The position numbers and the translations under genes were made by a program. Positions 1-14,236 of a DNA stretch of 34,946 bases are shown here, one piece after another (within the stretch, counting starts at the first letter, position 1; each line of letters starts with the position of its first letter). The notes below the pieces were generated by a model, which worked only from the letters and a program-made list of their open reading frames with translations, was not told where the DNA came from and made no database searches. This DNA is from Sulfuritalea hydrogenivorans sk43H (GTDB taxonomy: Bacteria > Pseudomonadota > Gammaproteobacteria > Burkholderiales > Rhodocyclaceae): the NCBI GenBank assembly GCA_945870205.1, contig CAMBRI010000017.1, positions 1-34,946 of the forward strand, given 5' to 3'.

Positions 1-25
1 ACCATCAACAGGAGTTTTACCGGCC

Positions 26-589
26 ATGGACATACTTCAGTACCTTGCCCCTTCGTTCGAGCATTACCTCACGCTTGAACGCGTACACCCGACCAGGACC
101 TACAGCTATGCCGCACGTGGCTATACGGGGTTGCCCGTCATCGAGGTCACACAGCATCGCCCAAAGTGCAAGATTGGCGAATCGTGGCTCTATGTTGCCG
201 CTCCAGCCACGGCACGCTTGAGTACTCTCGGTTCAGGTGAAAAGCTCTATGTTGGCGCGCAGACGCAAGACCGAATGTTCAGGGGAGATGGCATGGGAGG
301 GAGTAACTACCACCATGCCGAGATGCGCGCCGGTAAGGGCGACGACAATCCAGTCAGCTTTCTGAACACCGTCGGCAAAATAAGTATCCATCGAATTTCG
401 GCGGAAGCGATTGGCGTCATCGTGTCCAGGACTCCTGCTATGGCACCGCTTGCGAAATTGCTCCTACAACCAAGAACGTCAAGAAAGCATGTTGGCTACT
501 GGTTTGAGCAGTACATCCTTTCTCACGAACATTCGCAATGGCGCTGGAATACAGCAACCGCGGAAACGGGGATTCGCGGAATGCTTTGA
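26..589 (+). CDS. Uncharacterised protein, 187 aa
   Basis: I do not recognise this protein. It starts at an ATG about 11 nt after an AGGAG motif and has no signal peptide or membrane segment. It is soluble-looking with many aromatic and histidine residues (a GGSNYHHAE patch near residue 90) and no catalytic motif I can name. It is the first of three same-strand genes (26-1792) spaced by 48 and 102 nt that probably form one operon and end with a SRAP-like gene. The upstream context is cut by the window edge, so further operon members may precede it. Confidence 0.6.
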   Translation: MDILQYLAPSFEHYLTLERVHPTRTYSYAARGYTGLPVIEVTQHRPKCKIGESWLYVAAPATARLSTLGSGEKLYVGAQTQDRMFRGDGMGGSNYHHAEMRAGKGDDNPVSFLNTVGKISIHRISAEAIGVIVSRTPAMAPLAKLLLQPRTSRKHVGYWFEQYILSHEHSQWRWNTATAETGIRGML

Positions 590-637
590 ACTAATGCAAT
601 ACGATTGATGAAATCTTTCATCTGACAAGGAGCGAAC

Positions 638-994
638 ATGGACAACTCAGCTGTGGAAAAACGATTTGCACTGATTGCAAGTAATGGTGATGTACTCAAT
701 CCGTACATGAAAACGCAAAAGTCCACGGGACGGTACGGCTTTGCCCTGTCAAAGACTGGTGATCGGGATGCAAAGTCGGGTGGCGAGTATGTTGGAACAC
801 TAGAACAACTAGTTCGAAAGGTAGTCTTCGACGGCTACAAGGTGCGGGTCAAGACCACGAATAAACCGAATGAGCAGCGGGCAGGATCGCTAAAAATTGG
901 CGGGAGAGCGATTGTCGGCTATTGGGTCTCGGACGATTTGCGGCATTTGGTAGTTGGTGCACCTACTGCACCGAGGGAGCTTCCGAGATTCTGA
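638..994 (+). CDS. Uncharacterised protein, 118 aa
   Basis: No family is recognised. The ATG is preceded by a good ribosome binding site (AAGGAG about 6 nt upstream), which supports real translation. The protein is basic and has no membrane segment. A GGRAIVGYWVSDDLRHLVVG stretch near the C-terminus looks like a pair of beta strands. It lies between an unknown gene and a SRAP-like gene on the same strand, suggesting a common transcript, but nothing in the sequence shows a biochemical role. Confidence 0.6.
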   Translation: MDNSAVEKRFALIASNGDVLNPYMKTQKSTGRYGFALSKTGDRDAKSGGEYVGTLEQLVRKVVFDGYKVRVKTTNKPNEQRAGSLKIGGRAIVGYWVSDDLRHLVVGAPTAPRELPRF

Positions 995-1096
995 TCGACT
1001 GGAAATCAACCAGCGGCAATTCCCACATCGCAAAACTCTTGTGGACATTCGAAGAACTGGATAATATCCCAGTATCCTCAACACAGGAGACTGGTC

Positions 1097-1792
1097 GTGA
1101 CTGATTCTCTCGAACTGAACCTCACGGAAGGGCAGATCAAAGACCTATTCCCCAACTCGTATGTTGGCTCGAAGGAGCTTGCACCTGGAGTATTCCATCC
1201 CGGCGAACAAATTGGCATCGTCACGCGTAACAGTGATGGCGTTTTCAGCCAGAGCGCCCAGTGGGGGTTCATCCCCGGCCATCAGAGCGAACACTCCTTC
1301 CAGCCTCCGCATAGCCATGTGTATGCGAAGGACATTGCTCGACGTTGGACGTTCTCCAGAGCGTTTCAGTCCTGGCGCTGCCTGATCGTGGCGTCGTCCT
1401 ATGTGGTCGCCCCCGATGTTCTCGGCAGTACCACCTACTATCGCGTGCGCCATGCCGACGGGTCGCCGATGGCAATCGCGGGAGTCTATAACCCCAACAG
1501 CCACGGATGGGCATCGTCCGGCCCCTCTGCCGCAATGCTGATGGCTCCAGGACACATCCTGCTACCGGCAATGGGGCAGTGGATTCCGCAGGTGCTGGAT
1601 CGCCATGAATGGGATCAATGGTTGCGCTATGCGAACAACGTCCCGGCGGCAGTGAAGGACATGCTGAAGCCGAGGTCGGCAGAGAGAATGGAGTTCAGTA
1701 CGTTTGAGGGAGCGCCACCACCGGAAACGGTTGGGGATCGGAAGGGGCATATTCGGTTGTATTCGGCGCCAATTTCGAAGGCAGGACGTTAA
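1097..1792 (+). CDS. Divergent SRAP (HMCES/YedK-like) protein without catalytic residues
   Basis: SRAP proteins shield abasic sites in single-stranded DNA by a covalent bond through Cys2. Here the family blocks appear in order: WGFIPG (residues 56-61, usual WGLIPxW), YAKDIA (76-81, usual NARAET), FQSWRCLIVASSYV (90-103, usual RCLVPADGFYEW) and LLPAMGQWIPQVL (155-167, usual IHDRMPVIL), followed by an EWDQWL tail. The length of 231 aa is normal. The four positions that matter for catalysis differ: residue 2 is Thr rather than Cys, and the Asn, Glu and His of the other blocks are replaced. The GTG start at 1097 has a GGAG motif 7 nt upstream and no upstream MCG start exists. It may bind DNA without crosslinking, or have another role. 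The family call is by motif order only. Confidence 0.6.
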   Translation: MTDSLELNLTEGQIKDLFPNSYVGSKELAPGVFHPGEQIGIVTRNSDGVFSQSAQWGFIPGHQSEHSFQPPHSHVYAKDIARRWTFSRAFQSWRCLIVASSYVVAPDVLGSTTYYRVRHADGSPMAIAGVYNPNSHGWASSGPSAAMLMAPGHILLPAMGQWIPQVLDRHEWDQWLRYANNVPAAVKDMLKPRSAERMEFSTFEGAPPPETVGDRKGHIRLYSAPISKAGR

Positions 1793-1937
1793 TCTGTCGG
1801 AAACAATGGTAAAGATCTTGGTGTATTGGACGTTACATGTATGCTCTCGTCAAATCGGTGACATGTGAGCAGTCAATAGTGACACTCTCAACGCAAACAC
1901 CACTTCGTTGCATCCTGTTTTCTTGTTAAGGCGTCCC

Positions 1938-3065
1938 ATGTCCGATGACATCTTCAGCATCATTGCAAAAGAGATTGAGACGGGAAATACCAACACAGGA
2001 CTGTGGACGCGTGCGTTTGGCGAGTGTGATGGTGACCCAAATAGAACCAAGGCGCTCTACATTCGCCTACGACACGCTGAGCTAACTGCCGCACAATCAC
2101 CCCAAACAGTTGTACCACCACCTGGCGCCCCAATACCTTCGGATGGGCTAGGCATTCTTCGTCTTCGCTTAAAGAACAAGCTCACAGAGACAGGTAAGCA
2201 GTCGTTCTACAATCTTCTCGGCATTCCGCCTGATGTTAGCGATGCTGTTGTCGCAGCAGCGATTGTCCGATTGAACAGCCGTGCTTCCACCGGTGAAGCA
2301 CTTTCGCCAGAAATGCGTTATGCGATGGACGCGTTGGAAACCCCAGCAAAACGGGAGCAGTATGACCGACGTCTGTTTTCAATTCTGAACCCAGCACCGG
2401 TTCAGAAAGTCGAGAGTCTTCCGTTACTAGCCTTGGGTTCCAGCGATGGAATGCTTGATGGATGGAGGCGAACAAGGACTGGCCGGCTCATCCTCGTTGT
2501 GGCGAGCATGGCGTGTGTCGCCTTGTTGGTCGGCTATTTCAGCAAAGGAGCAAAGAAGTCGCCGAGTCAAACTGGCCCTGCGCTTGCGTCAAATCAACCG
2601 GGAATGAATTCGGCTGTGGCGGAACGCCAGCAACCTACACCCAGTCTGCCCGAGGACGCGCCCCAAAAGCAAAATGCCTCTGGCAATCTACCCCCGGAAG
2701 TGGTTGAACAGGCTCGGGCATTCTTAAGCGCACCTGCCCCTGAATCATTCCCAGGCATCAACCCGATGGATCGTGCAATTGCAGAAAATACATATCGCGC
2801 TCGTCGCGAGGAGAGCTTAGAGATACTCCGCATAGCAAGTGGTGTTAGCGGAAGTAACTCTGGACGAGCGTCAAAGGCAGCGCGAATGGAAGCCAAGGGC
2901 GATGCAGTAAGGGCACCGCAAACGCCAACCAATATGACTTCGTGCGATCCCGGGGGCTGCTGGGACAATCTCGGAAATCGTTACAACGGTAATGCTAACG
3001 GAACTATGTTTCGTACCGACGGCAAGATTTGCCAAAACATTGGCGGGATGGTTCAGTGCAACTGA
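1938..3065 (+). CDS. Membrane-anchored J-domain-like protein, 375 aa
   Basis: The chosen ATG at 1938 follows AAGGCG; an in-frame ATG at 1908 has no comparable site. Residues 1-50 form a small helical domain (GLWTRAFGECDGD...) of a type common at the N-terminus of proteobacterial membrane proteins. Residues about 89-146 resemble a J domain (FYNLLGIPPDV... then ALETPAKREQYDRRLF), but the HPD tripeptide needed to stimulate DnaK is absent. A transmembrane helix lies at about 184-201. A Pro/Gln-rich linker follows, ending in a four-cysteine domain (CDPGGCWDNLGNRY... CQNIGGMVQC) that would be on the far side of the membrane. This C-terminal motif occurs in many proteobacterial proteins of unknown role. 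Function is unknown; an HSP70 co-chaperone role is doubtful without HPD. Confidence 0.6.
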   Translation: MSDDIFSIIAKEIETGNTNTGLWTRAFGECDGDPNRTKALYIRLRHAELTAAQSPQTVVPPPGAPIPSDGLGILRLRLKNKLTETGKQSFYNLLGIPPDVSDAVVAAAIVRLNSRASTGEALSPEMRYAMDALETPAKREQYDRRLFSILNPAPVQKVESLPLLALGSSDGMLDGWRRTRTGRLILVVASMACVALLVGYFSKGAKKSPSQTGPALASNQPGMNSAVAERQQPTPSLPEDAPQKQNASGNLPPEVVEQARAFLSAPAPESFPGINPMDRAIAENTYRARREESLEILRIASGVSGSNSGRASKAARMEAKGDAVRAPQTPTNMTSCDPGGCWDNLGNRYNGNANGTMFRTDGKICQNIGGMVQCN

Positions 3066-3101
3066 GGCAGCCTGACCCTGCTCTGGTTGATCGCGGTGGT
3101 G

Positions 3102-3204
3102 AATGTAGGGATGTAGGGTTTGCCCCTTTTTTCTAACCCTTTCGCTAATGCGTGCGTTAAAGGAGAGAAGCTAAAAACAGGATCAAACCCTACATCCCTA
3201 CATT
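3102..3204. repeat. Perfect 21-bp inverted repeat enclosing 61 nt
   Basis: Arms at 3102-3122 and 3184-3204 are exact reverse complements; the core is AAACCCTACATCCCTACATT. Each arm itself contains two tandem CCCTACAT-type units. A 13-nt part (CAAACCCTACATC) recurs in direct orientation at 3691-3703, 15 nt before the small terminase start. The spacing is too long for an ordinary terminator. A protein-binding site for replication or packaging is possible but unproven. Confidence 0.7.
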
Positions 3205-3249
3205 GACGCCAACACCACCCGACCCCTCGGTCAGTGACAAACACACCGG

Positions 3250-3287
3250 TTTCCCATATACTGGATATAACACCAGTTATCGGGAAA
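3250..3287 (+). promoter_or_regulatory. Operator-like imperfect palindrome
   Basis: The outer arms TTTCCC/GGGAAA and inner arms ACTGG/CCAGT pair around an AT-rich centre (ATATAACA), with four mismatched bases between them. It ends 7 nt before the start codon of the zinc-ribbon gene, so a bound protein would block expression of the terminase-containing transcript. The binding protein is not known. Confidence 0.4.
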
Positions 3288-3294
3288 TGCGGCT

Positions 3295-3465
3295 ATGACC
3301 TACATTCTCTGCCCCTACTGCCACTGCTCCGCACTTGCCTCGGACTACCTGTTGTGTGACGGCCAGCGCGGCAGCCGCTTTGTTCTGTGCCCCGAGTGCG
3401 ACGCATGCATCCCCCTTCCAGCCACCGAGCATCATGAAGATTCTCCTGAGCTTGAGGCGGCTTAA
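3295..3465 (+). CDS. Small zinc-ribbon protein, 56 aa
   Basis: An ATG at 3295 opens a 56-residue frame with two CxxC pairs (CPYC at residues 6-9 and CPEC at about 32-35) plus further cysteines, a typical zinc-ribbon spacing. The C-terminus is acidic (EHHEDSPELEAA). It overlaps the start of the next gene (3434) by 32 nt in another frame and lies immediately behind an operator-like palindrome, so it is probably the first gene of a short transcript ending in the small terminase. Small zinc-ribbon proteins are common beside phage terminases, often with unknown roles. The call rests on the cysteine pattern, the position and the compact gene overlap. Confidence 0.55.
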   Translation: MTYILCPYCHCSALASDYLLCDGQRGSRFVLCPECDACIPLPATEHHEDSPELEAA

Positions 3466-3721
3466 CGGCAAGCGCCTTGCCTCTGACAGGGGCGATGTAC
3501 GCCACCGGCTGGTCGATTTTCGCCTGACCGCTGCCGATGGCTACCGCGTTGCCCGTGCTCAGTGCTGTGTCGGTGGCAGTGAGGTCGCCGTACTGTGGGA
3601 GCCGACCCTGGTTCGTGTTGATTCAGTTTCCCTTCTGTTCCAAGGCTTCGAGAAAGCCGGTGAGCAAACCGTCGTTCAGGAGTGGGTCGTCAAACCCTAC
3701 ATCGCAGGAGCAAGGCCATGA
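3434..3721 (+). CDS. Uncharacterised phage-type protein, 95 aa
   Basis: The open frame extends further upstream, but the ATG at 3434 (MKILLSLRRLNG...) is the sensible start because it overlaps the zinc-ribbon gene only slightly. No family is recognised. The sequence is mostly beta-strand-like (YRVARAQCCVGGSEVAVLWE). Its stop codon overlaps the start of the small terminase gene (ATGA at 3718-3721), implying translational coupling. The last codons contain a 13-nt copy of the repeat found at 3184-3196. Confidence 0.5.
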   Translation: MKILLSLRRLNGKRLASDRGDVRHRLVDFRLTAADGYRVARAQCCVGGSEVAVLWEPTLVRVDSVSLLFQGFEKAGEQTVVQEWVVKPYIAGARP

Positions 3722-4176
3722 CCAGTACCGCTTTATCTTCCCGCCAGAATCGCTTCGTCCAGGCCTACTGTGGGCACCTGAACGCCAGCCGTGCCGCCCG
3801 CGAGGCGGGTTATGCGGCCAGCAGCGGCGCGGACGCGGTTACGGGGCACAGGCTGCTAAGGAATGCTAAGGCTAGAAGGGCTATAGAGGCCCTACAGCGG
3901 GCTAAAGCGACCGAACTGGAGCTGGATCGAAACGCCATCATCCGGGCCATTCTGGGGGCTATAAAGACGGCTCAGGAACAGGGTGTGCCAGCCACGATGA
4001 TTCGGGGATGGGTCGAAATAGCGAAGATCACTGGCCTGGACAAGCCCGAGACGCCTTCGGCGCGGCGGAATGTGCCGCTGTCGGCGGGAGCGGAGCGCGT
4101 GAGGAACAGGTTCGAAGCGATGAGCACCGAGGAACTGCTGGAGATTCTAGCCGGGAAGGAAGCGGCTGCGGGGTAG
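3718..4176 (+). CDS. Phage terminase small subunit
   Basis: The N-terminal half matches the Terminase_2 pattern: SSRQNRFVQAYCGHLNAS, then ARAAREAGY-type helices and RLLRNAKARRAIEAL. This is the DNA-binding helix-turn-helix part that recognises the packaging site. The remaining residues form a helical oligomerisation and C-terminal region. The size (152 aa) fits the family. The ATG at 3718 overlaps the preceding stop and has GGAG upstream; an in-frame ATG at 3682 is less likely. No large terminase (ATPase/nuclease) follows. A lone small terminase is typical of phage satellites, which redirect the packaging motor of a helper phage, but may also be a relic of a deleted prophage. Confidence 0.75.
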   Translation: MTSTALSSRQNRFVQAYCGHLNASRAAREAGYAASSGADAVTGHRLLRNAKARRAIEALQRAKATELELDRNAIIRAILGAIKTAQEQGVPATMIRGWVEIAKITGLDKPETPSARRNVPLSAGAERVRNRFEAMSTEELLEILAGKEAAAG

Positions 4177-4497
4177 CGCCGGGCGCGGCTGCACTGGGGA
4201 GCACCGCTGAAATGGTGGCTTGGCTATGCCTGCAAAAGACTGATTGCGGACCTACCGCTTTTCAACTGATCCGGCGGCATCGTGCACAAAGCCGACGCTG
4301 AAGGGAAATGGAAGCGCCCATTCGCGACAACCCTCAGCTTCGCGGAAGCCGCCGTTCAAATTTCGATTTTGACTTTTCAGCCTGATGGACAGGCGTAACC
4401 GGCCAGCGATAACTTATAACTCTGAATTATCGCCCAAACATTGCTACGAACAGAACGTAGATTTCTGAGCATCCCAATTCCGCCAAATCGAGCGAAA
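4177..4497. other. Gene-free spacer between convergent genes
   Basis: No convincing gene is seen. The only open frame (to 4301, plus strand) is the out-of-frame shadow of the small terminase. A weak hairpin (GCGATAA at 4406-4412 with TTATCGC at 4427-4433, 14-nt loop) lies between the converging genes but has no clear T-run. If a large terminase was once present downstream, nothing recognisable remains. Confidence 0.4.
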
Positions 4498-5019
4498 TCA
4501 GCGATTAGACTTTTGTGCGTTTAGGAAACTGCGGCGTCCAATCATTAATTTGAAGTCATGGCCCCGTCTAATCCCCCATCGGGCGTAAAGCGTCGTGGCT
4601 GCTGCCGCAAACGGTAGTATGACTAGCCCATCCATCCAACCCGCGCCACCTATTCCTGACATCAGGAACGCTAATTCGTATTCGCCCTTTCGCCACTGAA
4701 AATAATTAAATGACAAGTCGGTCACCATCAAGCAGGAATAGGTTCCCGCCCAAGTAAGTGGCACCGAGGGTAGGTCAAATCGTCCGAACACGAGGTAAAT
4801 TATGACGAATAGGGGTAGCGCATGCGCAACAAGCCCCGGCCCGGCCCGCCCAAATTCCAAATAGACCGCCTGAATCTCAGGTCGGCCCTGAACTAGACTG
4901 AGCGCCGCGCTGAGTGTAAAAATCAGCCAGTTCACGTGCAGCTCATGCCTTTGCTTTATCAACACGAAAATACTTATCAGCGACAGACCAATGCCGATAA
5001 CAAGCGTATGCCACTGCAT
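4498..5019 (-). CDS. Small integral membrane protein in the prepilin operon, 173 aa
   Basis: Four to five hydrophobic helices are visible (for example TLVIGIGLSLISIFVLI at the N-terminus, a central AHALPLFVIIYLVFG and a late GLVILPFAAAATTLYA). The C-terminal tail is basic and probably cytoplasmic. It begins 3 nt after the stop of the prepilin-lectin gene, so the two are almost certainly co-transcribed and coupled. I do not recognise a family. It could serve assembly or anchoring of the pilin-like proteins, or immunity or signalling; nothing in the sequence decides. Confidence 0.55.
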   Translation of the reverse strand: MQWHTLVIGIGLSLISIFVLIKQRHELHVNWLIFTLSAALSLVQGRPEIQAVYLEFGRAGPGLVAHALPLFVIIYLVFGRFDLPSVPLTWAGTYSCLMVTDLSFNYFQWRKGEYELAFLMSGIGGAGWMDGLVILPFAAAATTLYARWGIRRGHDFKLMIGRRSFLNAQKSNR

Positions 5020-5022
5020 CGT

Positions 5023-6786
5023 CTAGTACGTACTAAACTGAAGCGAATTAATGTAAAGGTTTACAGTAGCGTTCGTATTGGCATTTGTCGTCGTCATGCC
5101 AAAGTAGATTGAGTCATAGGCATTGACGCTGGCTGGTGCCGGCAGGCAAGTTGTTAGGTAGGCGGTGCCAGTCGGGTAGTCTCCTTGCGTGGTACTTGCC
5201 GCTGTAGAGAGATTGGCGAGCGTTCCACAAATGGCTGAGTTAGCCGCGCAAATCGAATACTGCATAAGCCACGCACGCAGTTGAGGTGCCGCCCCCGCGC
5301 TGCAAGCTGCTGACCGGGGTTCGATCTCCATGCGTAGCAAATTACTACTTGATGAACCACTCCTCAGCCAATTCACGATATTGGGGTGAAAGCATGTCGC
5401 GCCCCAAGTTGTTGTGCGCGACGGACAAGCCGGTGCTTTCAACCCATCGTGATCAGTGCCTGCAAAAACAATACTGGAATGCGCATGCCTCGTACTTTGC
5501 GTCCCCGTTGGGTCGCTATACCCTGTGTTCCGGGTCAAATCGATCTCGACCGCGAACCGGTCAGTCGTTGCGAACGTACCTCCGCCCCACCCGATGTCAG
5601 CGCCGGTTGTGTTGCCTGTGCTGCTGCTTGATGTGCCGCAGGGGGTAGATGTTAGCGTCGATGCCCCGGACAAAATCCCAAGCACAAAACCATTCCCAAC
5701 GTCCCCGCTTGTGGGGTAGCCAAAGGTCATCACCGCCCTTAGGTTACGTTTTAGTGCTGTGCTTGGGAAGTACAGCTGTTGTTTATTCGGCCACCATAGG
5801 CAGCGCGAATAAGTCCCACTAGCCCCACCGACACGAAGCGTGTCACCGCTGGCTGTAAATGCCCCACTGCCTGAACTGGCAGCGAAACTATTCTGCCCTT
5901 CCGCAAACGTACCCATATTTGCCGTCGTTGCGGCACTTAGAGCGGTTGTCGTCGGGTCTGGTGGCTCGGGCCAATCTCTATCTTTAAGTCCGGTGCGTTC
6001 AATTAGTTCCGCTATTGCCATGTAGACAATTTGGTCATCAAAATGGTTAGCGTCGGAAGGCTCCACAGTGGTTGCGGCTTCGCGCTGATAGAACGTTAGT
6101 TGGGGATTGGCTTCAGAGTTGAACCATTCAAGGCTATTGGTCGCTGCCGATGTCATTCGCGCACCATTCGGACCCCATGATCCGTAGCCAGTTTTTCCAT
6201 GGTCAATTAGAACAAACGCAATACTCGGCAGTGATACGCCCATGTTATCAACCGTCAACCCTTTTCCAAGCATAAACTGACTCGGCGTGTGGTCGTGTGT
6301 GGTCAGACATAGTCCGGAGGTTGGCAATGTCGCTGGCGTTGGCTGCACGGTGTCGCAGTTAACCATGCTGGCTCCGTCGTCTTGCGTGAGACCCGTTACG
6401 CCGGCAAACACGCGATATGAAATCAGCCTACCCTGCGCGTTAGTTCTTGCGTCAATTGGAATATTTAGCGTGCTCCAGGGGACTACGCCAGTTGGACTGT
6501 TACATGTGGATGAACCTGTGGTTCGGTCTTCAACACCAGTCATTGCTGCGCCCGATGCGGGACAGGGTAGGCGCTTGTTCGTCGCTGCGAATACCACCAG
6601 CGCCTGCCGAATGAACTCCAGATTGTCTTTTTCTGCGCCGGCGCGCTGTACCTTGCCTTCTGCCACCTCAAGCAATTTGGCTGTTATGAAGGCCGTCACC
6701 AAAGCTAGTAGCCCGACCACCACCAGTAGCAAGGTGCCCCCGCCCTGATAACGTCCCGACCGCTTCTTAATGATTCCGTGGAGCAA
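5023..6786 (-). CDS. Prepilin-like protein with C-terminal lectin-like domain
   Basis: The N-terminus has a basic leader (KKRSGRYQ) followed by GGGTLLLVVVGLLALV, a type IV pilin-like helix that lacks the usual Glu5. The next roughly 270 residues parallel the upstream prepilin block by block: NKRLPCPASG, GVVPWSTLNIP, YRVFAGVTGLT, DHGKTGYGSW and NHFDDQIVYM. The last about 270 residues resemble a concanavalin A-like or L-type lectin fold (FAVEIDLTRN, HSSIVFAGTDHDG, YINSLQF), absent from the paralogue. No ATG starts the gene. TTG occurs at 6786 and 6840, and ATT at 6771 overlaps the stop of the upstream gene and would give an ideal short leader. None has a clear ribosome site, so coupling is likely. 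Probable role: surface adhesin assembled by host type IV pilus or type II secretion machinery. Confidence 0.6.
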   Translation of the reverse strand: MLHGIIKKRSGRYQGGGTLLLVVVGLLALVTAFITAKLLEVAEGKVQRAGAEKDNLEFIRQALVVFAATNKRLPCPASGAAMTGVEDRTTGSSTCNSPTGVVPWSTLNIPIDARTNAQGRLISYRVFAGVTGLTQDDGASMVNCDTVQPTPATLPTSGLCLTTHDHTPSQFMLGKGLTVDNMGVSLPSIAFVLIDHGKTGYGSWGPNGARMTSAATNSLEWFNSEANPQLTFYQREAATTVEPSDANHFDDQIVYMAIAELIERTGLKDRDWPEPPDPTTTALSAATTANMGTFAEGQNSFAASSGSGAFTASGDTLRVGGASGTYSRCLWWPNKQQLYFPSTALKRNLRAVMTFGYPTSGDVGNGFVLGILSGASTLTSTPCGTSSSSTGNTTGADIGWGGGTFATTDRFAVEIDLTRNTGYSDPTGTQSTRHAHSSIVFAGTDHDGLKAPACPSRTTTWGATCFHPNIVNWLRSGSSSSNLLRMEIEPRSAACSAGAAPQLRAWLMQYSICAANSAICGTLANLSTAASTTQGDYPTGTAYLTTCLPAPASVNAYDSIYFGMTTTNANTNATVNLYINSLQFSTY

Positions 6787-7627
6787 GATAGGCTCGATAC
6801 GCGACGCTGGAAATACTCGGTCGTGACACAAGATCGTCAAAATGACTTACTGAGACACCGTGGTTAACTTCATTGTCAATATACGTAGCTTGTACATCCC
6901 TGTTATTGACGTTTAACGCTTCTCTCGTTCCAGCCGCCGTGCCATTTCCGGCGCTTACAACTCCTTGGTTTGAATAGCCGCCTCCACCGTCACTCCCGTG
7001 ACTGATGATGACATAGGCTGCCCCGGTGTTGGATGCTGGGTCCATGAGAATATTGCCGGCGACATCTTCAATCCGTAGCCCCTTATTGGCAACAAATAAG
7101 GCGGGCGGAGTGCATGTCTCTAGATCGCCACTTGTGCAGTTCGAGTCACACGCCTGGGTCGTTGGTACTGCCACAGTACCCCTTCCGGCAGGGTCGCACG
7201 ATGACATATTCATGCCATTTGCAATTGTTAGCCCATTAGCCGCCGAGAAAACTCGGTACGTTAGGCGTGTATTCCACCCGTCTTCGGCTTCTACCTCCGG
7301 AATGCCTAACGTCACCCAAGGGACTACCCCATCGTTTTGATTAAGGGTGCATTCACCGGCTGCTGCCGGCAAACTTACACCGGCACCCGCCGCACCGGTC
7401 GCAATCGTTCCGTCAGCCGGACAAGGCAGGCGTCCATTCGTTGAAACGAACAGCGCGAGAGCGGCATCCACGGCCTGTATGCTGCTTCGCGTCATTTCAC
7501 GGGATTTGTTGCTTAGAAACACAGAACTTGCGCCCATGAAGAACGACATCAATAGGCCAAAAATCACCAAGACCACCGCCATCTCGATCAAGGAAAAGCC
7601 TCGCTGAAATCGCAGTATTCCGTTCAT
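6767..7627 (-). CDS. Type IV prepilin / pseudopilin-like protein, 286 aa
   Basis: The N-terminus MNGILRFQRG|FSLIEMAVVLVIFG is a classic class III prepilin signal: a short basic leader, Gly before the cleavage point, Phe at +1 and Glu at +5, then a hydrophobic helix used both for membrane insertion and fibre packing. The C-terminal globular part has the NGRLPCPADG and GVVPWVTLGIP blocks and several cysteines likely to form disulphides. Processing needs a prepilin peptidase and assembly ATPase, none of which is encoded in the window, so host machinery is presumed. It is the first gene of a minus-strand trio with the prepilin-lectin gene and a small membrane protein. The start ATG has no clear ribosome site. 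Confidence 0.75.
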   Translation of the reverse strand: MNGILRFQRGFSLIEMAVVLVIFGLLMSFFMGASSVFLSNKSREMTRSSIQAVDAALALFVSTNGRLPCPADGTIATGAAGAGVSLPAAAGECTLNQNDGVVPWVTLGIPEVEAEDGWNTRLTYRVFSAANGLTIANGMNMSSCDPAGRGTVAVPTTQACDSNCTSGDLETCTPPALFVANKGLRIEDVAGNILMDPASNTGAAYVIISHGSDGGGGYSNQGVVSAGNGTAAGTREALNVNNRDVQATYIDNEVNHGVSVSHFDDLVSRPSISSVAYRAYLAPRNH

Positions 7628-7841
7628 GACTGAATGATACGGCTATTTGCGTCTGATCTTGATGGATTGAATACGGGGCGAAACCGGTCTCTACCGCAAG
7701 CTATATGAACTACATAATGGCCGACAAAAAAATGCCCCGGAGGGTGCTTGGTGGCGTAGATAGTTCGTTTTGGCGATAACCGAACGTGAGCAGTTGGCCG
7801 GGGCCGAAGTAGTGCCCGTCGCCACCAATGGCCGCTCCCGC

Positions 7842-8206
7842 TGCATTGACGCCGGTGGCGGCAAGGTGGGCAAGCAGCCGTACTACATCCGACCTGCTGC
7901 CTAGGCTGGTTTCTTTGCCTTCGCCGGACTACTGGCGCGGTGGCGTGCGCCGGACGGCAGCGATCTGGTGACGACGTGCATCATCACGACGGCGGCGAAC
8001 GCGCTGATGACCCCGATCCACGTCCGCATGCCGGTCATCCTGGAGCCGGCGGCGTGGGATGGGTGGCTGACACCGGAGAAGGCCTCTATGGAGGCGCTGA
8101 AGGCGTTGCTGGGGCCGTGTGCGGCGGACGGGATGGCGGCGTACCCGGTGAGTACTGCGGTGAACAGGGCGAGGAGCTGATAGAGCCTGCCCCGACAATC
8201 GGGTAG
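7842..8206 (+). pseudogene. Decayed SRAP (YedK-like) gene, C-terminal half
   Basis: One frame reads GKQPYYIRPAA, then a stop at 7902-7904, then AGFFAFAGLLARWRAPDG, CIITTAANALMTPIHVRMP, VILEPAAWDGWLTPE and AYPVSTAVNRAR, ending at 8180. These are the conserved C-terminal blocks of SRAP proteins in the right order. The true family tail (QGEELIEPAPTIG) continues in another frame to 8206, so there is also a frameshift or small deletion near 8170. The N-terminal half with the catalytic Cys2 is missing or unrecognisable. The HDR motif reads HVR. The gene is therefore broken by a stop, a frameshift and truncation. It is a different lineage from the intact divergent SRAP gene at 1097-1792. Confidence 0.8.
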
Positions 8207-8217
8207 CCCAAACAGAC

Positions 8218-8249
8218 AAAACCCCCAGAACCTGAGTTCTGGGGGTTTT
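8218..8249. terminator. Bidirectional rho-independent terminator
   Basis: A perfect 14-bp stem (AAAACCCCCAGAAC at 8218-8231 with GTTCTGGGGGTTTT at 8236-8249) encloses a 4-nt loop, with A and T tracts on the two sides. It sits 19 nt beyond the stop of the minus-strand replication operon and just after the plus-strand SRAP remnant. Confidence 0.85.
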
Positions 8250-8268
8250 GGGGGTTGGTACTAGGTGC

Positions 8269-9840
8269 TTATTTGGGTTTCAGCGCCGGGTTTATGTTGT
8301 AGCTGGGCGACTGCGGACGTCCAGCACCTCTCTCGGCCTGAATGCGCCGTATCCATCCGTCCAACTCCAACTCGGCGCAGGCGGCATGAACGGTCTGCGC
8401 ATCCTTCAAGTGCGACCAACCCGACTTGTAGACGTCACGCTCGCTGAAGCCGTCGGCCAGACTGCCGGATTTCAGCTTGGCTGACAGCGCGCTTATTGCT
8501 GACTGGACCTGATCGAGAGCCAGTGAATAAATCCGATCCGCGTGCGATGACAGGTAGTCACCCCAAGCGATAGCGCGCTGCAATGCCTCTCTGGAGATTC
8601 CTTTGCGAGCGGGTTTGACGCCGGACGCCAAGTCAACCAAGTGGAAGATGAGTGCCAGCGCCGGAATGAGCTTCCGGTACTTGCCAATGTGCTCGGCGAG
8701 CACGGGGCTTTCGATCTTGCGGACATCCACTTCAAGTTGCGTGAGCCATTTGACAAACAGTTTCTGTGCACTGTCACAGAAATGGAAGTGCGGTATGTCG
8801 TGCTCATCCTCCTGCGTTGCACCCATGCTAACGAAGTCGGTTGAGGCGAGCTTCCGGAGAATGTCGATGACCTTGTTCTTCGCTTCAGAATCGGGCTTCT
8901 GGTCAACATACTTCCAGTCGCCAAATTCATCAGGGAATACCATCAGCTGGAAGCGTTGGAGCAGACCGTCGTTGTCGTAACCCATGACGGTTCCGTAGAT
9001 GTAGTCCTGCAGCTTGGCGGGCTGAATGCCGCCGAACAGTGACAGACACAGCCGAGCAACAACGATACTTCCGCGCCCTATACGGTCCACCGACATAGAG
9101 TTGCGGCCCACCCATGCTTCAAGGAAGAAGGCACGGTCACCTTCGTGTCCTTGCTTGTCGCAGCTTGCCAGCAGTCCAACCAGTTCATCCCGGATGTACA
9201 ACAAGCCGCGTGGGCTATCCCGAGCAAGCTCGCCGATCTTTTCCACGGTGGCGTCGTTGGTGCGGAAGCGGGTCAGCGTCGGCTCCTTGTCGGTTTGCTC
9301 GGCGAGCGTCACCTGGACAATGCGCTGCCGAACTTCCTCGGGACTGATCTGGAGCTTCGTATGTGCATTGTCGGATTTCAGCTGCTTCAGCTCCGTCGCA
9401 CGATCAACCTTCCGCATGAGGAATCTGTTCATATCTTCCTCATATGTGCGTTGTGCATCGCCTTCGATCCACGAAAGCGGTGCCATGCCTGCCGAGATTG
9501 CCGGAGTTTTGAGAGCACCCGGACGCCCAACGATGCCGCCCCAGAGGTTGGGGACCTCCGACCAGTCATCGAGTTTCTTGGGGTGTACCGAACACGCAGC
9601 CCCGATTACCGACCCGATCATAGTGAGGCAGGAGACCGCTACGAAATCCGGCGGACACTGCATGCGGTGGGCCGCATCCATGACGAAATTCGCCAGAACC
9701 TCGGGCAGCAGATTTCTCTCAAACGGTGCCACAGGCTCGAGATCGAACTGCAGTTCCTCCGGGTCGCTCCACGGTTCGTCACCGTCAATGCGCAAGGCCA
9801 GCAGGTCAAGCATGCTCTGGGGGATGTCAATGATGTTCAC
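8269..9840 (-). CDS. DUF3987-family helicase-like replication protein
   Basis: The protein (523 aa) has a Walker A-like loop IVGRPGALKTP at residues about 103-113 and a following GLLYIRDELVGLL segment, both characteristic of DUF3987 proteins, which accompany prim-pol domains in phages, plasmids and satellites and probably unwind DNA at the origin. The C-terminal about 120 residues look like a winged-helix region (SGLADGFSERDVYKSGW-like, then a basic tail). The true start is GTG at 9840: an AAGGAG motif lies 7 nt upstream and the GTGA overlaps the stop of the prim-pol gene. The longer upstream frame would overlap the prim-pol gene and is rejected. It is the last gene of the replication operon. 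Confidence 0.75.
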   Translation of the reverse strand: MNIIDIPQSMLDLLALRIDGDEPWSDPEELQFDLEPVAPFERNLLPEVLANFVMDAAHRMQCPPDFVAVSCLTMIGSVIGAACSVHPKKLDDWSEVPNLWGGIVGRPGALKTPAISAGMAPLSWIEGDAQRTYEEDMNRFLMRKVDRATELKQLKSDNAHTKLQISPEEVRQRIVQVTLAEQTDKEPTLTRFRTNDATVEKIGELARDSPRGLLYIRDELVGLLASCDKQGHEGDRAFFLEAWVGRNSMSVDRIGRGSIVVARLCLSLFGGIQPAKLQDYIYGTVMGYDNDGLLQRFQLMVFPDEFGDWKYVDQKPDSEAKNKVIDILRKLASTDFVSMGATQEDEHDIPHFHFCDSAQKLFVKWLTQLEVDVRKIESPVLAEHIGKYRKLIPALALIFHLVDLASGVKPARKGISREALQRAIAWGDYLSSHADRIYSLALDQVQSAISALSAKLKSGSLADGFSERDVYKSGWSHLKDAQTVHAACAELELDGWIRRIQAERGAGRPQSPSYNINPALKPK

Positions 9841-10397
9841 AGTGAAACTCCTTTCAACCATTCGTACGGTTTGTTTGTGTCGGGATGGATAGACGGCGGC
9901 AGCACGACGTTTTTTCCCGTAGACAGTACTTCGACCACATAGGCAGGCTTCGCTCCCTTGGTGCCGGGGCTGCATACTTGACCTTCGCGCACCCAGATGT
10001 CTGACTGGCGCAAGGTCGTTGCAGCCTTGTCAGGCGATGTGCCTTTTGCCGTGCGCAGATACTGGTGTCGTCCTACGCCGGAGCCGGATTTCACTTGCGG
10101 ATCGTATTGACCGCCGAGCACGGTTGCGGCCACGGCGTACGCTTCCTCCGCAAAGGGCTTGCCGCCACGTATGTCGATGTCGAGGACGATGATCTCGTGA
10201 CTGTCAACGACAGACCATTTGCCGGGTCGGAAGCCGACGTTATATCCATCTCGGAAAGTGGCCTCCAGTGCTGCGAGTGACGCGATCGGAGCATCTGCCC
10301 AGCCTGCGTCGATGGGTCGCTTCTCCTTGGGGATAAGCCAGTGGATGGCGAATCCCATCTCGCGCAAGGCGAGCGCTGTCTTGAGGGTCGGGTTCAT
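9837..10397 (-). CDS. Bifunctional primase/polymerase (prim-pol) domain protein
   Basis: This 186-residue protein carries the motifs of the archaeo-eukaryotic prim-pol fold used by mobile elements: GYNVGFRPG (51-59), VLDID with the metal-binding aspartates 73 and 75, SGSGVGRHQY (104-113) with the nucleotide-binding histidine, and VVLPPSIHPDTNKPYEW (164-180). The length is that of the catalytic domain alone. The zinc-binding and helicase parts are separate neighbouring genes. Its start overlaps the CHC2 gene (ATGA) and its stop overlaps the DUF3987 gene, so the three are translated together. Likely role: primer synthesis for element replication after excision. Confidence 0.8.
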   Translation of the reverse strand: MNPTLKTALALREMGFAIHWLIPKEKRPIDAGWADAPIASLAALEATFRDGYNVGFRPGKWSVVDSHEIIVLDIDIRGGKPFAEEAYAVAATVLGGQYDPQVKSGSGVGRHQYLRTAKGTSPDKAATTLRQSDIWVREGQVCSPGTKGAKPAYVVEVLSTGKNVVLPPSIHPDTNKPYEWLKGVSL

Positions 10398-10771
10398 GTC
10401 CGGCCCTCCAGAAAGCGGATCGCATCGGCTACGGAAAGCCCATCCCGCTCACTGACAAAACTGACAATACTCTTGCCGGTTGCGCCGCAGTTGGAGGACT
10501 TGCATGCATACCAGCCGGTGCGCAGGTTCATGCAAAGCGACGGATTGTGATCGTCGTGGAACGGGCAGCAGCCCCACGCCCAGTCGTTATCGCCTTCGTT
10601 GAAGCCTTGTATCTCTGCCGCATAGAATGCTGCCGGTGACGGCAGCGGTGCCGCGACCCTTCGCGTGGTCGATTTGGTATAGTGGCTGTACGCAGCGTGA
10701 CGCCCAAAGTTGTGCTGCTGGCCCAGCAGCCTCCTGCCAGAGGCGCTGGGCTTTGTCGTTTTCGGCTTCAT
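10394..10771 (-). CDS. CHC2 zinc-finger primase protein, 125 aa
   Basis: Residues 69-95 form a CHC2 finger: CPFH (Cys69, His72), then Cys90 and Cys95 in WYACKSSNCGATG, followed by SIVSFVSERDGLSVADAIRFLEG, as in the N-terminal domain of DnaG. In DnaG this module reads the template for priming. No TOPRIM catalytic domain follows, so the protein must act with the downstream prim-pol protein. Residues 1-45 are basic and low in complexity and may bind DNA or be disordered. GGAGGGG lies upstream of the ATG, and TAATG joins it to the preceding regulator gene. Confidence 0.75.
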   Translation of the reverse strand: MKPKTTKPSASGRRLLGQQHNFGRHAAYSHYTKSTTRRVAAPLPSPAAFYAAEIQGFNEGDNDWAWGCCPFHDDHNPSLCMNLRTGWYACKSSNCGATGKSIVSFVSERDGLSVADAIRFLEGRT

Positions 10772-10998
10772 TATTTGGCCCCTCCGTTAAGAAGGACTGC
10801 GGTCGGCACCACCGGCCAGAGAAGGCGGTTGCCGACTTTAACTGGCCGGATGCCGAAGCACTCACCCGTCAGGCAGTGGTTTTTCCGTACAGTTTGGTCG
10901 GCGTGGTCTGTCGCTTTAGCAAACTCGGATGTAGATATGTGGTCACGTCCTGCCGCCATTGCCGCCAGTGCATCGGGTATTACTGTTTTCGTAATCAT
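10771..10998 (-). CDS. Small helix-turn-helix (AlpA/excisionase-like) protein, 75 aa
   Basis: The ATG at 10998 (MITKTVIPDALAAM) is preferred over an in-frame GTG at 11025. The core HISTSEFAKATDHADQTVRK, followed by a GIRPVKVGNRLLWPV wing, matches the small DNA-binding proteins that precede primase genes in phages and satellites, some of which activate excision or the replication operon. It is the first gene of the replication operon and its stop overlaps the next start. A small palindrome at 11028-11048 about 30 nt upstream is a candidate autoregulatory site. Whether it is an AlpA-type activator, an excisionase or a replication accessory cannot be told. Confidence 0.6.
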   Translation of the reverse strand: MITKTVIPDALAAMAAGRDHISTSEFAKATDHADQTVRKNHCLTGECFGIRPVKVGNRLLWPVVPTAVLLNGGAK

Positions 10999-11027
10999 CT
11001 TTGTATACCTGTAGGTACGGCCCACGT

Positions 11028-11048
11028 CGCCGTGATTGATTCACGGTG
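11028..11048 (-). promoter_or_regulatory. Candidate operator upstream of the replication operon
   Basis: CCGTGA (11030-11035) and TCACGG (11041-11046) form a perfect 6-bp inverted repeat around TTGAT, with a further partly paired base on each side. It lies between the end of the integrase operon and the first replication gene, where a regulator of the operon would bind. Confidence 0.35.
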
Positions 11049-11111
11049 AAACGCGGGACAAAGACGGATTAAGAGTAGGGCGCTAAGTGGGGTGCAATGG
11101 GTCTTTTCCCC

Positions 11112-11765
11112 CTACTCCCTAGAATACTGTTCATGTTTTTCCATTCTGATCCGGCATTGCTTTACGGCCTCTTGCCACGCTTCCTTGAATGGATCATCGC
11201 CAACGCCGAAAAATTGCGTATAACTCTCCTTACATTCTTTTCCAATTTTCATCTTCCCGCCGTCAGGAATGGACAAACACTTGAACTGGAACTTACCTAC
11301 CAGGAACTCAATGATGCGAATTTGGCGTTCGCGCCTTCCAAGCCCTGTCTCTGTCCAGGGCTGAGCCGGCATCTCTGTAGTCGCTGACTCGTATTCCTCG
11401 ATCTCAATATTTGAACTTGTTAGATCGGCGGAAAATCCCGCGACTACTTCACTGTAATCAACCTTCTTGCTTAGCCATAATAGAAAACTGGCAGTGACGA
11501 TGCGAATATTCTTGGCATTATGTATTTCCGCTGTTGGTGACGAGCTTGGAGCGATTGCAATTTCATTGTCTTTCACTGCCTTAAATAGGGTTTTGATCTT
11601 TTCTTCTACGCGATAACCCATCTGATGGTTGTTGAAATTCTCCAAGTGCTCAGCGACGGAGGGAAACGCGTCCTTGTGGTGATCCGGGTCATCTCCCAGC
11701 ATCAAGAAGGCAGCTTCAAGGAGACTCAGGCTGGAAGCTTCCTTCCATTTCTCACGAATCATCAT
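11112..11765 (-). CDS. Uncharacterised protein coupled to the integrase, 217 aa
   Basis: No family is recognised. The protein is soluble and mostly helical, with charged segments (EYESATTEM, MKIGKECKES) and a C-terminal FKEAWQEAVKQCRIRMEKHE helix. The start codon overlaps the integrase stop (ATGATGA at 11759-11765), giving tight translational coupling, so it may take part in or regulate integration. Codon use is more AT-rich than in the chromosomal half of the window. Regulator or cargo roles are equally possible. Confidence 0.6.
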   Translation of the reverse strand: MMIREKWKEASSLSLLEAAFLMLGDDPDHHKDAFPSVAEHLENFNNHQMGYRVEEKIKTLFKAVKDNEIAIAPSSSPTAEIHNAKNIRIVTASFLLWLSKKVDYSEVVAGFSADLTSSNIEIEEYESATTEMPAQPWTETGLGRRERQIRIIEFLVGKFQFKCLSIPDGGKMKIGKECKESYTQFFGVGDDPFKEAWQEAVKQCRIRMEKHEQYSRE

Positions 11766-13225
11766 TTAGTGCTTACCCGCTTCGAGATTGCGACGGCCTT
11801 CTTACCAACAGGGCGCAACTTTGTGTTCGTGAGGTGCTTGAAGTCGATTCCTGCTTCCTCCAGAACCCACTCTTCTATCTTTTCGTGCCACATTCGCAAC
11901 ATATCGAGCGGGCGCACGGTGTAGTGCTTCTCTGCAGTCGCTGATGGCTTGTGGCCCATGATCTGGGCGACTACGCCGACGGGACACTCTATCCACTCCG
12001 TCAGGCTCTTGAATGACCTGCGCAAGCCATGCAATGTCAGGCCTTCGATTCCGGCGACCACAAGCGCCCGACTGTGCTGGTAGCGCGGCTCCTGCAAGTA
12101 ACCTTCGGCGGCTCTAGGGCTGGCAAATACCCAAGGCGATGGCGCCCATTCTAATTCGGTGGCTTTTTTGGCACGCAGCTTCCTCACCCTCGGCGGCGTC
12201 TCGTTACGGATCTTCAGGGTGCGTAGCAGATTTTCAACGTAGGGCGTAAGTGGCACGACTCGTAGCCCTTCTACCTTGTCTTTGATCGTTATCGATTTCC
12301 ATGCGAAGTCGATGTCAGACCACTTGAGCGGAGTCAGTTCTTCGCGTCGGCAGCCGAGCAGTAATAGGACTTGCAAATAGGCGCTGATGGTAGGGTTGCT
12401 GATCTGGCGGACTGCTGCAAACCAAACAGAAAGTTGTTCGCGCAAAAGCACGTCTTTCTTGGATCGCTTCGCCGGCAGCTTGTCCTTAACGTCTGAATGG
12501 GTGCAAGCATCCTGTGCTGCGATGTCTTTGTATTCCTGGCGCCCCTCACACCAACTCAAGAATGTACGAAAGTGTCCGTAGCCTAGGCGGGTCTGGGCTG
12601 GCCTGCTGACGGTTTCCTGCTCAAGCCATGCATGCATGGTTGCTGGGGTGATTTCGGACAGGTGAAGCGGCATCAGCGAAGCCAAAACCCCCGGCTTCGT
12701 CTTTCGCTTTCCTCGTTTTGCCGGCACTCCTCCTGGACTTGCAAGATTTTGGTGATCAAGCAGGTTGCGAGCACCCCATTTGCCACTCCTTTGGCGAGCC
12801 TCCACATAGGCGCTCCACGCGTCGCCGACGGTGATCTGAGTGCGGGACACTTCGATGCGCTTGCATTCTTCCTGCCGGAATCGCTCGTCGTTCTCAGCCA
12901 GTACTTCCAGTTTGGCGCGGCGGGGATCAATTCCCTGGTCGACCAAGGCCGATAGGCGGCGGGCCTCCTCTCGCGCACCCGGATGGTCCGGATCTTTGCT
13001 GCTGATAGGCCAGAGATTGACATCGCCGATGGCGGTACGGACGGTCTTGCCAGCAAGTTTCGACTCGAACACGTATGTCTTCGCGCCCGCCGCAGTTACC
13101 CGAACTGCCAGCTTGGGTACTTCAGTATCTCTGAGGAAGGCTTGGTCCTTCCCGGGAGGACATGTCAGACCAGCAATCCTCCCCTGCGTCAGTTTGACCC
13201 GATCCATGACCTCCAACCTTTCCAT
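11762..13225 (-). CDS. Tyrosine recombinase (P4-type integrase)
   Basis: The 487-aa protein has an N-terminal arm-binding domain (FLRDTEVPKLAVRVTAAG, then TYVFESKLAGKTVRTAIGDV), a core-binding domain at about 130-240 and a C-terminal catalytic domain. The catalytic set is complete: Arg293 (LLGCRREEL), His399 and Arg402 (HGLRRSF), His425 (MGHKPS) and the nucleophile Tyr435 (EKHYTVR). It cuts and joins DNA between the element and its tRNA target. It reads inward from the attachment site 150 nt away. ATG codons at 13225 and 13207 are both possible starts; neither has an ideally spaced ribosome site. The stop overlaps the start of the following 217-aa gene. Confidence 0.9.
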   Translation of the reverse strand: MERLEVMDRVKLTQGRIAGLTCPPGKDQAFLRDTEVPKLAVRVTAAGAKTYVFESKLAGKTVRTAIGDVNLWPISSKDPDHPGAREEARRLSALVDQGIDPRRAKLEVLAENDERFRQEECKRIEVSRTQITVGDAWSAYVEARQRSGKWGARNLLDHQNLASPGGVPAKRGKRKTKPGVLASLMPLHLSEITPATMHAWLEQETVSRPAQTRLGYGHFRTFLSWCEGRQEYKDIAAQDACTHSDVKDKLPAKRSKKDVLLREQLSVWFAAVRQISNPTISAYLQVLLLLGCRREELTPLKWSDIDFAWKSITIKDKVEGLRVVPLTPYVENLLRTLKIRNETPPRVRKLRAKKATELEWAPSPWVFASPRAAEGYLQEPRYQHSRALVVAGIEGLTLHGLRRSFKSLTEWIECPVGVVAQIMGHKPSATAEKHYTVRPLDMLRMWHEKIEEWVLEEAGIDFKHLTNTKLRPVGKKAVAISKRVSTK

Positions 13226-13374
13226 GTAGCCGCTATGTAGCCAGTCTACAGGAATATTTAGGAATCTTGATCAACGAGTGGTTTTGAGTTGAAATGCCTT
13301 GGAAGGCCACAGGACATGGATTCGCGAGGGTTTTAGGAGTGGCAATCAACATGCTGGAATCCTGTCTTTCCCGT

Positions 13375-13421
<47 letters not shown>

Positions 13422-13422
13422 C

Positions 13423-13461
13423 AAAGACAAGGGCTTATCTTCGGATAGGCCCTTTGTCTTT
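13423..13461 (+). terminator. Rho-independent terminator of the displaced tRNA-Met gene
   Basis: AAAGACAAGGGCTTATC pairs with GATAGGCCCTTTGTCTTT around a TTCG loop, with one bulged base and one G-T pair, ending in a T-rich run. It lies directly after the partial tRNA, where the original tRNA gene would have ended before integration. Confidence 0.75.
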
Positions 13462-13638: not shown

Positions 13639-13950
13639 TCAGCCGGGGCCGCCGTCTCTCTCGGCGTATCCCGCTTCGCGCTGACTGCGGATCGCCAGCA
13701 CGAAAACGATGTCCATCTCGGGGACATAGCGGTAGAACGCGAGATACCCGGTGGACCGGCGGCCGATGACTAGTTCGCGCTTGTTGTTTGCAACCGGGCG
13801 GCCGATCAGCGGGTTCTGCTCGAGCACATCCAGGGCAGCGATGATTTCCCCGATGCGACGCTCGGGGCTTTGCACCTGATACGTCGACAAGTGACCGAGA
13901 ATCCGATCGAAGTCTGCGGCGACTTCAGGTGCGAGTTCAACCCGGGCCAC
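13639..13950 (-). CDS. parE: ParE/RelE-family toxin
   Basis: The sequence ends with the RelE/ParE pattern: NPLIGRPVANNKRELVIGRRSTGYLAFYRYV, then MDIVFVLAIRSQREAGY. ParE proteins poison DNA gyrase, whereas RelE proteins cut mRNA; the LxNPxxGRP and R-E-L-V blocks fit ParE better, but this is inference. The start is taken as GTG at 13950, just after the antitoxin stop at 13952, giving 103 aa, the usual size. The frame also extends upstream to an ATG at 14013, which would overlap the antitoxin by 62 nt. Expression and neutralisation depend on the upstream antitoxin gene. Confidence 0.75.
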   Translation of the reverse strand: MARVELAPEVAADFDRILGHLSTYQVQSPERRIGEIIAALDVLEQNPLIGRPVANNKRELVIGRRSTGYLAFYRYVPEMDIVFVLAIRSQREAGYAERDGGPG

Positions 13951-13951
13951 T

Positions 13952-14236
13952 TCAGCGGGCCAGTTTTCGCGCGACGGGACGCTTGGCAGATTTGCCGGCG
14001 ATACGCGTTTCAAGATACTTGCGCATTTCGCTCCAGGAAATGGTTTCTCCCGAGGTCACAATGGCGGCGAAACGCTTTTCGGCTTCGGCATCGAGGTCTG
14101 TCCGGAGTTCGGCCTGTTGTGTCTTCTCCGCGATGGCCTCGAGGATAAAGCCGTGCGCTGTGGTTCCGGAGCGTTTGGCGGCGGCAGCCACCCGACTCTT
14201 GAGGTCTTCGGGCAGGCGGATGGTCGTGGTCGTCAT
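13952..14236 (-). CDS. parD: Ribbon-helix-helix (ParD/CopG-type) antitoxin
   Basis: The first 45 residues (TTTTIRLPEDLKSRVAAAAKRSGTTAHGFI) form a ribbon-helix-helix DNA-binding domain. The rest is a charged region (SWSEMRKYLETRIAGKSAKRP) that would wrap the toxin. It is 94 aa, with AGGA upstream of the ATG. It precedes the toxin gene and is followed by it after one nucleotide, the standard antitoxin-first order. A 7-bp inverted repeat at 14269-14286 in the promoter is the likely autorepression site. The pair lies outside the integrated element, immediately beyond the attachment site. Confidence 0.8.
   Translation of the reverse strand: MTTTTIRLPEDLKSRVAAAAKRSGTTAHGFILEAIAEKTQQAELRTDLDAEAEKRFAAIVTSGETISWSEMRKYLETRIAGKSAKRPVARKLAR

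Follow-up and report, generated by a model that had tools for sequence, protein, structure and literature searches.

A prepilin pair in the cargo of an integrative element

The 34,946-nt contig CAMBRI010000017.1 of Sulfuritalea hydrogenivorans sk43H (G000:C17), analysed here in its entirety as the window, holds part of an integrative element at tRNA-fMet and, in it, three consecutive genes that encode a canonical prepilin (P0003), a second prepilin with a long C-terminal module (P0002) and a membrane protein (P0001) (Table 1). P0003 has a class III leader (QRG followed by FSLIE, with Glu5 present) and then a hydrophobic helix, as expected of a type IV prepilin. P0002 gave zero Pfam or NCBIfam matches at E ≤1 and was recognized as a prepilin by its homology to P0003, a hydrophobic stretch at residues 31-60 and a leader glycine. 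The P0002 frame begins at a TTG codon at position 6840, well upstream of the prepilin leader. Its true start is probably the TTG at 6786, within the 3' end of the P0003 gene, which gives a better leader fit. Read from there, the leader is RYQGG followed by GTLLL, and Glu5 is absent.

Over its first ~300 residues, P0002 is 31% identical to P0003 (E 5.1e-23), with a local alignment score of 259; scores from 300 shuffles averaged 36 (sd 5.9) and did not exceed 60. Four blocks shared in the same order (RLPCPA, GVVPW, YRVF and HFDD), listed in a preliminary description of this stretch, were collinear in the alignment, and the pair withstood the shuffles. The description had also placed an extension of ~270 residues on the second prepilin only; the extension is indeed confined to P0002, but it spans ~310 residues past the part shared with P0003. 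This extra part, absent from a 274-aa relative on a Nitrosomonadales contig (L041), makes P0002 a modular pilin. The membrane protein gene follows as described, across a gap at 5020-5022. The described absence of assembly genes was likewise borne out, with no pilus assembly families among the 26 window proteins scanned with Pfam (small frames excluded). The host genome encodes one Peptidase_A24 match (PilD-type) and eight T2SSE matches, seven of them over the cut-off. The pair has a third relative in this genome, on contig C352 beside other prepilins.

That the trio is carried as cargo, also part of the preliminary description, is supported by a 3' part of tRNA-fMet beside the tyrosine integrase gene on the chromosomal flank, the arrangement of an element integrated at a tRNA gene. 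Positions 13372-13425 matched the intact tRNA-Met(CAT) of genome G025 (L079) at 53 of 54 bases, and genomes G029 and G002 matched the tRNA part together with the sequence behind it at 91% and 92%, respectively. In G025, the intact tRNA gene is flanked on one side by an S-adenosylhomocysteine hydrolase gene and on the other by the chromosomal block that comes after the fragment in the window. The upstream flank in the S. hydrogenivorans genome was found on contig C43, where the match ends at the contig end, 22 nt short of the tRNA; of the two attachment sites, the window holds the right one only, and the left flank is on C43. Given that ARAGORN found no tRNA in 1-13371, the other end of the element lies outside that stretch and the trio inside the element.

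Searches of phage records with P0001 and P0002, the only two queries used there, gave no match. Plasmid records also gave none for these two proteins, while P0003 matched two records covering 22-23% of its length, one of them annotated as GspG. A scan of IMG/VR with A1 returned 13 stretches, none of which was confirmed. In the titles and abstract openings of the literature searched, there was no report of an integrative element carrying minor pilins only.

Prepilin pairs at chromosomal sites

P0002 had matches in 37 of 61 genomes (E ≤1e-3), mostly to the pilin part, and the genome collection yielded 22 loci, mostly from Betaproteobacteria. Gene order was inspected in 17 stretches and in 11 loci out of the 22, to which G014 and G028 add two more (L053-L061 were left out). 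Comamonas and Rhodoferax metagenome-assembled genomes (MAGs) have a canonical prepilin followed by a prepilin without Glu5, between genes for a short-chain dehydrogenase and a dienelactone hydrolase (Pfam-checked for L043 only). A Sulfuricella MAG has a pair of the same kind upstream of a DNA polymerase III alpha gene, and in G028 and Undibacterium such pairs are close to T2SSE/MshEN and T2SSF genes. Glu5 was missing from 13 of 13 second copies (no Glu within eight residues after the leader glycine). By eye it was present in 10 of 10 first copies; a script counted 9 of 10, having taken a later glycine for L024 (leader ASG followed by FTLVE).

In a tree of 28 rows, P0002 fell in a clade comprising eight second copies (support 100/98) that includes those of G014, the Nitrosomonadales contig, G057, G038 and Comamonadaceae pairs, which indicates that the split between first and second prepilins is older than the element. 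L041, which lies near G014 in the tree, stops after the pilin part. Five other second copies fell among the first copies, and such pairs may therefore have formed twice. Tandem duplication within the element, as the preliminary description had it, was ruled out by the tree, which makes the duplication an old one. The same description had treated the three genes as a unit that would not be conserved in chromosomal pilus loci. Since homologous pairs occupy chromosomal sites, some of them in pilus loci, this does not hold for the pair; it does hold for the trio, given that P0001 had matches in only 2 of 199 family genomes.

Those two were P0001 itself and a 25% identical relative in G011, with which it has GG.GW.DGLV in common. 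No Pfam family matched P0001 over the cut-off, and a phmmer search of the 2637 frames of the collected loci returned only its own copies and the G011 relative. The latter adjoins an MmeI-like enzyme, and nothing was flagged by the prepilin pattern in the 20-kb stretch around it. P0001 is outside the conserved prepilin-pair unit.

The C-terminal module of P0002

The AlphaFold model of P0002 (16 rows) had a mean predicted local distance difference test (pLDDT) of 53.6, with values per ten-residue block of 41-88 in the pilin part and 21-63 in the extension, which was modelled, at low pLDDT, as strands and two short helices. A legume lectin and an enterovirus capsid protein shared the best Foldseek E-value (0.038), the lectin being listed first. 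With VIA-align, the first 26 rows for this low-confidence model had Z-scores of 8.0-8.6 and were mostly legume lectins aligned over ~165-175 residues; the first row was a gingipain adhesin domain, and meprin MAM domains were also present. Judged from the model, the module is probably a beta sandwich like that of concanavalin A (ConA) and L-type lectins. The all-beta, lectin-like character proposed in the preliminary description is thus retained, but a weak, low-pLDDT model does not establish the ConA-like fold that it named.

The 1158-aa protein of G014, a genome of the same genus, carries the same module and is identical to P0002 at 119 of 310 positions. At the identical residues, 54 of 63 fourfold sites differ, and the nonsynonymous (dN) and synonymous (dS) rates for the module were 0.84 and 3.2. 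Synonymous sites are thus near saturation while residues are kept, from which we conclude that the module is under purifying selection.

We also compared the profile of the module (A3) with that of the large prepilins of loci resembling those for mannose-sensitive haemagglutinin (MSHA) pili (A4, 6 rows). The stretches aligned resemble each other (DIGW.GG..DRFAVEID versus LGYSG..KLAIEFD), but at a probability of 0.8% and E 0.075 homology is unproven. A sequence search of solved structures gave one unrelated weak match each for P0002 and A4 (E 0.91 and 2). MSHA-like loci of the family and the order (L027, L031, L033, L035 and L048) end in a large prepilin of 595-1160 aa, with either a smaller prepilin or further short frames next to it. 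An AIEFDT-like motif, typical of L-type lectins, occurs in some large prepilins (L014, L017, L027 and L035).

A second element and sibling elements

In G014, a 305-aa prepilin and the 1158-aa prepilin, which lacks Glu5, are encoded behind a different integrase, one not retrieved by a search with the window integrase. The G014 integrase gene abuts the last ~14 bases of a tRNA-Ser gene; in L107, L108 and L110, three of the five relatives scanned, the same radical-SAM (YgiQ-like) gene has an intact tRNA-Ser(CGA) next to it. The 18-kb stretch of G014 contains no tRNA, which puts the pair on the element side, with the far end beyond the stretch. The 1158-aa protein owes its greater length to five insertions between conserved segments; they measure 54, 57, 65, 67 and 236 residues, and most are of a single glycine-rich repeat type. 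Repeated beta-rich modules between the C-terminal segments of large prepilins were seen both in G014 (L023, 1869-5345) and in G031 (L027, 5504-8986), with a different repeat type in each. A ~30-bp stretch in the YgiQ-like gene (L023, about 11854-11889) recurs at many places in genomes of the genus.

Integrases of the window type were found in 34 of 229 family genomes (E ≤1e-30). As siblings of the element we took 12 stretches of 9-19 kb each, two of them from elsewhere in the S. hydrogenivorans genome and the others from ten further genomes. Five cargo proteins from 3 of the 12, hand-picked for a defence-like look, matched PADLOC models.

Other features of the element and its surroundings

Besides the genes listed in Table 1, the element includes an SRAP gene, and no Pfam family was found for a 217-aa protein (11112-11765) or for the frames at 638-994 and 3335-3721. 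A terminator-like hairpin of 15 pairs is located at 8217-8250; terminator patterns overall were at shuffle level (5 versus 4.2). An inverted repeat at 3099-3207 has 34-nt arms that are 88% complementary and 41 nt apart, with a partial third copy at 3690-3724. Just outside the element, at 13639-14236, a 94-aa frame precedes a ParE-toxin frame (Pfam 1.9e-10), and similar DNA (68-73%) is present in several genomes of the genus. A ~154-bp repeat (14458-14611) has copies that are 76-94% identical in 20 or more of the 31 genus genomes and is present several times in the S. hydrogenivorans genome; no Rfam family matched it at the gathering threshold.

Table 1. Features of the prepilin trio and of the element that carries it (positions in the window).
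Feature	Position	Strand	Evidence
P0001, membrane protein, 173 aa	4498-5019	minus	starts 3 nt past P0002
P0002, second prepilin, 605-aa frame	5023-6840	minus	homology to P0003; leader without Glu5
P0002 C-terminal module, residues 296-605	5023-5955	minus	model strands, Z 8.0-8.6, G014 identity
P0003, canonical prepilin, 286 aa	6767-7627	minus	Pfam N_methyl 5.5e-7; TIGR02532 2.4e-7
Terminase small subunit-like gene, left part of element	3682-4176	plus	Pfam Terminase_2 1.8e-11; PHROG 1.3e-14
DUF3987 helicase-like replication protein	8269-9975	minus	Pfam 6.9e-81; PHROG 'DNA helicase' 3.4e-32
Prim-Pol primase domain protein	9837-10397	minus	Pfam 2.8e-14
CHC2 zinc-finger protein	10394-10771	minus	Pfam Zn_ribbon_DnaG 8.4e-10
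84-aa protein common to sibling elements	10771-11025	minus	tblastn, 7/12 sibling stretches; no Pfam family
Tyrosine integrase	11762-13225	minus	Pfam Phage_integrase 6.3e-12
tRNA-fMet 3' part, right attachment site	13372-13420	plus	46 nt identical from 13375 on

Possible roles of the prepilin trio

We propose, with about an even chance of being right, that the trio is a pilus-tip cassette carried as cargo of the tRNA-fMet element, which uses the PilD and the pilus machine of the host and alters what the host pilus binds. P0002 and P0003 would be processed by host PilD and assembled by the type IV or MSHA-like pilus machine that the host itself provides, with P0002 capping the filament and P0003 linking it to the filament body. 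The module of P0002 would then be exposed at the pilus tip, where it might bind sugars and mediate adhesion, and the element would thereby change what host pili bind. In favour of this reading are the seat of the element at tRNA-fMet, the pair with the same module on a second element in G014, the absence of Glu5, the place of P0002 in the tree, the strands and lectin-like neighbours of the modelled module, the selection on it, the PilD-type peptidase and ATPases of the host, and the precedent of PilC. Lectin modules on modular pilins are already known, as are phages that switch off pili; an element that supplies the tip pieces only and borrows the rest from the host would be an economical way of rewriting surface behaviour. 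That a single genus has two such elements, each at a different tRNA gene, makes the idea testable.

Several results weigh against this proposal. None of the 599 Foldseek matches of the P0002 model reached E ≤0.001, and further matches included several lectins and many picornavirus capsids, whose jelly rolls ranked high. By the stated background of VIA-align, models without a clear match typically reach a best Z of 7 to 8, and the Z-scores for the modelled module are close to this level; we therefore call the module lectin-like rather than a lectin. When the module was folded alone on a two-row alignment, the pLDDT was 29, and no Pfam or NCBIfam profile recognized it. On these models, its fold is not established. 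The module is also rare: a search of the Gammaproteobacteria-class sample found it in 1 of 369 genomes, its own (G014 evidently lies outside this sample), and it is missing from L041. Promoter patterns were at shuffle level (3 versus 2.6), and relatives of P0001, P0002 or P0003 at 1e-4 are encoded in 0 of the 12 sibling stretches.

An unlikely alternative is superinfection exclusion, by which the cassette would cap or alter the pilus and so block adsorption of pilus-dependent phages, with the membrane protein perhaps acting to jam the machine. PMC11436027 describes phage proteins that put type IV pili out of action, and both the PADLOC matches among sibling cargo and the MmeI-like neighbour of the G011 relative of P0001 count for this reading. 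However, that sibling cargo was selected rather than sampled, and P0001, P0002 and P0003 matched no PADLOC model at 1e-5. Because mere blocking would not need a conserved binding module, we favour adhesion over phage exclusion.

We consider it improbable that a chromosomal minor-pilin pair was simply picked up by the element and is now neutral or decaying cargo. Such pairs are common at chromosomal sites, and the P0002 frame has a TTG start. The G+C content at third codon positions is 0.51-0.56 in the trio, compared to 0.64-0.70 in four other element genes and 0.76-0.77 in two chromosomal genes, which suggests separate acquisition. Against passive capture, none of the three frames is interrupted, pairs bearing this module are found behind two distinct integrases, each at a tRNA gene of its own, and residues of the module are kept while synonymous sites are near saturation. 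Very improbable, finally, is a role in a type II-like secretion pseudopilus rather than an adhesive pilus, where the two would be additional pseudopilins for sorting or pushing a substrate: GspG is the best NCBIfam model for P0003 (1.3e-8, 35 bits, far under its cut-off of 88.85) and absence of Glu5 also marks the K pseudopilin (PMC9934059), but the MshEN-domain ATPases near chromosomal relatives point to MSHA-type pili, and no secretion substrate was seen beside the trio.

Extending the pilus-tip proposal, elements might trade interchangeable tip cassettes, each with a canonical adaptor and a Glu5-less cap whose lectin-like module has loops that accept repeat modules. A mobile element would in this way reprogram host pilus specificity without a pilus system of its own, whether for holding partner cells and surfaces or for concealing the pilus from phages. 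We hold this broader idea only tentatively and think it rather doubtful.

Comparison with known systems

The chromosomal pairs (L026/L047, L043, L045, L046 and L049-L051) resemble the pair of the element in gene order and in the homology of both pilin parts. They differ in being chromosomal, some beside T2SSE/MshEN and T2SSF genes, and in having second copies of 235-313 aa without the module. The element itself is like the satellites known as phage-inducible chromosomal islands (PICIs) in having an integrase at a tRNA gene, a primase and helicase, and a TerS-like gene. A further likeness is that no capsid or tail families were found among the window proteins scanned (Pfam, PHROG). It differs from them in that its cargo is pilins, and its left end lies outside the window. 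The TerS-like gene is the one feature that bears on a putative packaging by a helper phage.

Filaments are capped by K subunits, in which Glu5 is missing (PMC9934059). P0002 is like K-type tip subunits (GspK/PilX) in lacking Glu5, in having a hydrophobic N-terminal helix and in being larger than the neighbouring prepilin. Unlike them, it has no H, I and J partners, being adjoined only by P0003, and no match to GspK/PilX profiles at E ≤1. P0002 may work like a K-type tip subunit without being a member of that group.

Modular pilins, of which more than 1,200 proteins in 264 architectures were reported, combine a pilin part with an unrelated C-terminal module, as P0002 does (PMC8179133). That survey demanded a recognized N-terminal motif and a defined extra domain, and P0002 has neither in Pfam or NCBIfam. 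PilC of Streptococcus sanguinis, a minor pilin of the type 4 pili alongside PilA and PilB, has a ConA-like module that binds glycans (PMC9934059). Like P0002, it is a minor prepilin with a C-terminal module, is encoded in an operon with minor pilins and is proposed to be located at the pilus tip (PMC9934059). As described there, however, PilC has Glu5, which P0002 lacks, and its gene belongs to the host pil locus, whereas that of P0002 is part of an integrative element. In contrast to the glycan-binding module of PilC, the C-terminal module of P0002 is unrecognized by sequence and its binding putative. Among known kinds, P0002 comes closest to the modular pilins, of which PilC of S. sanguinis is an example.

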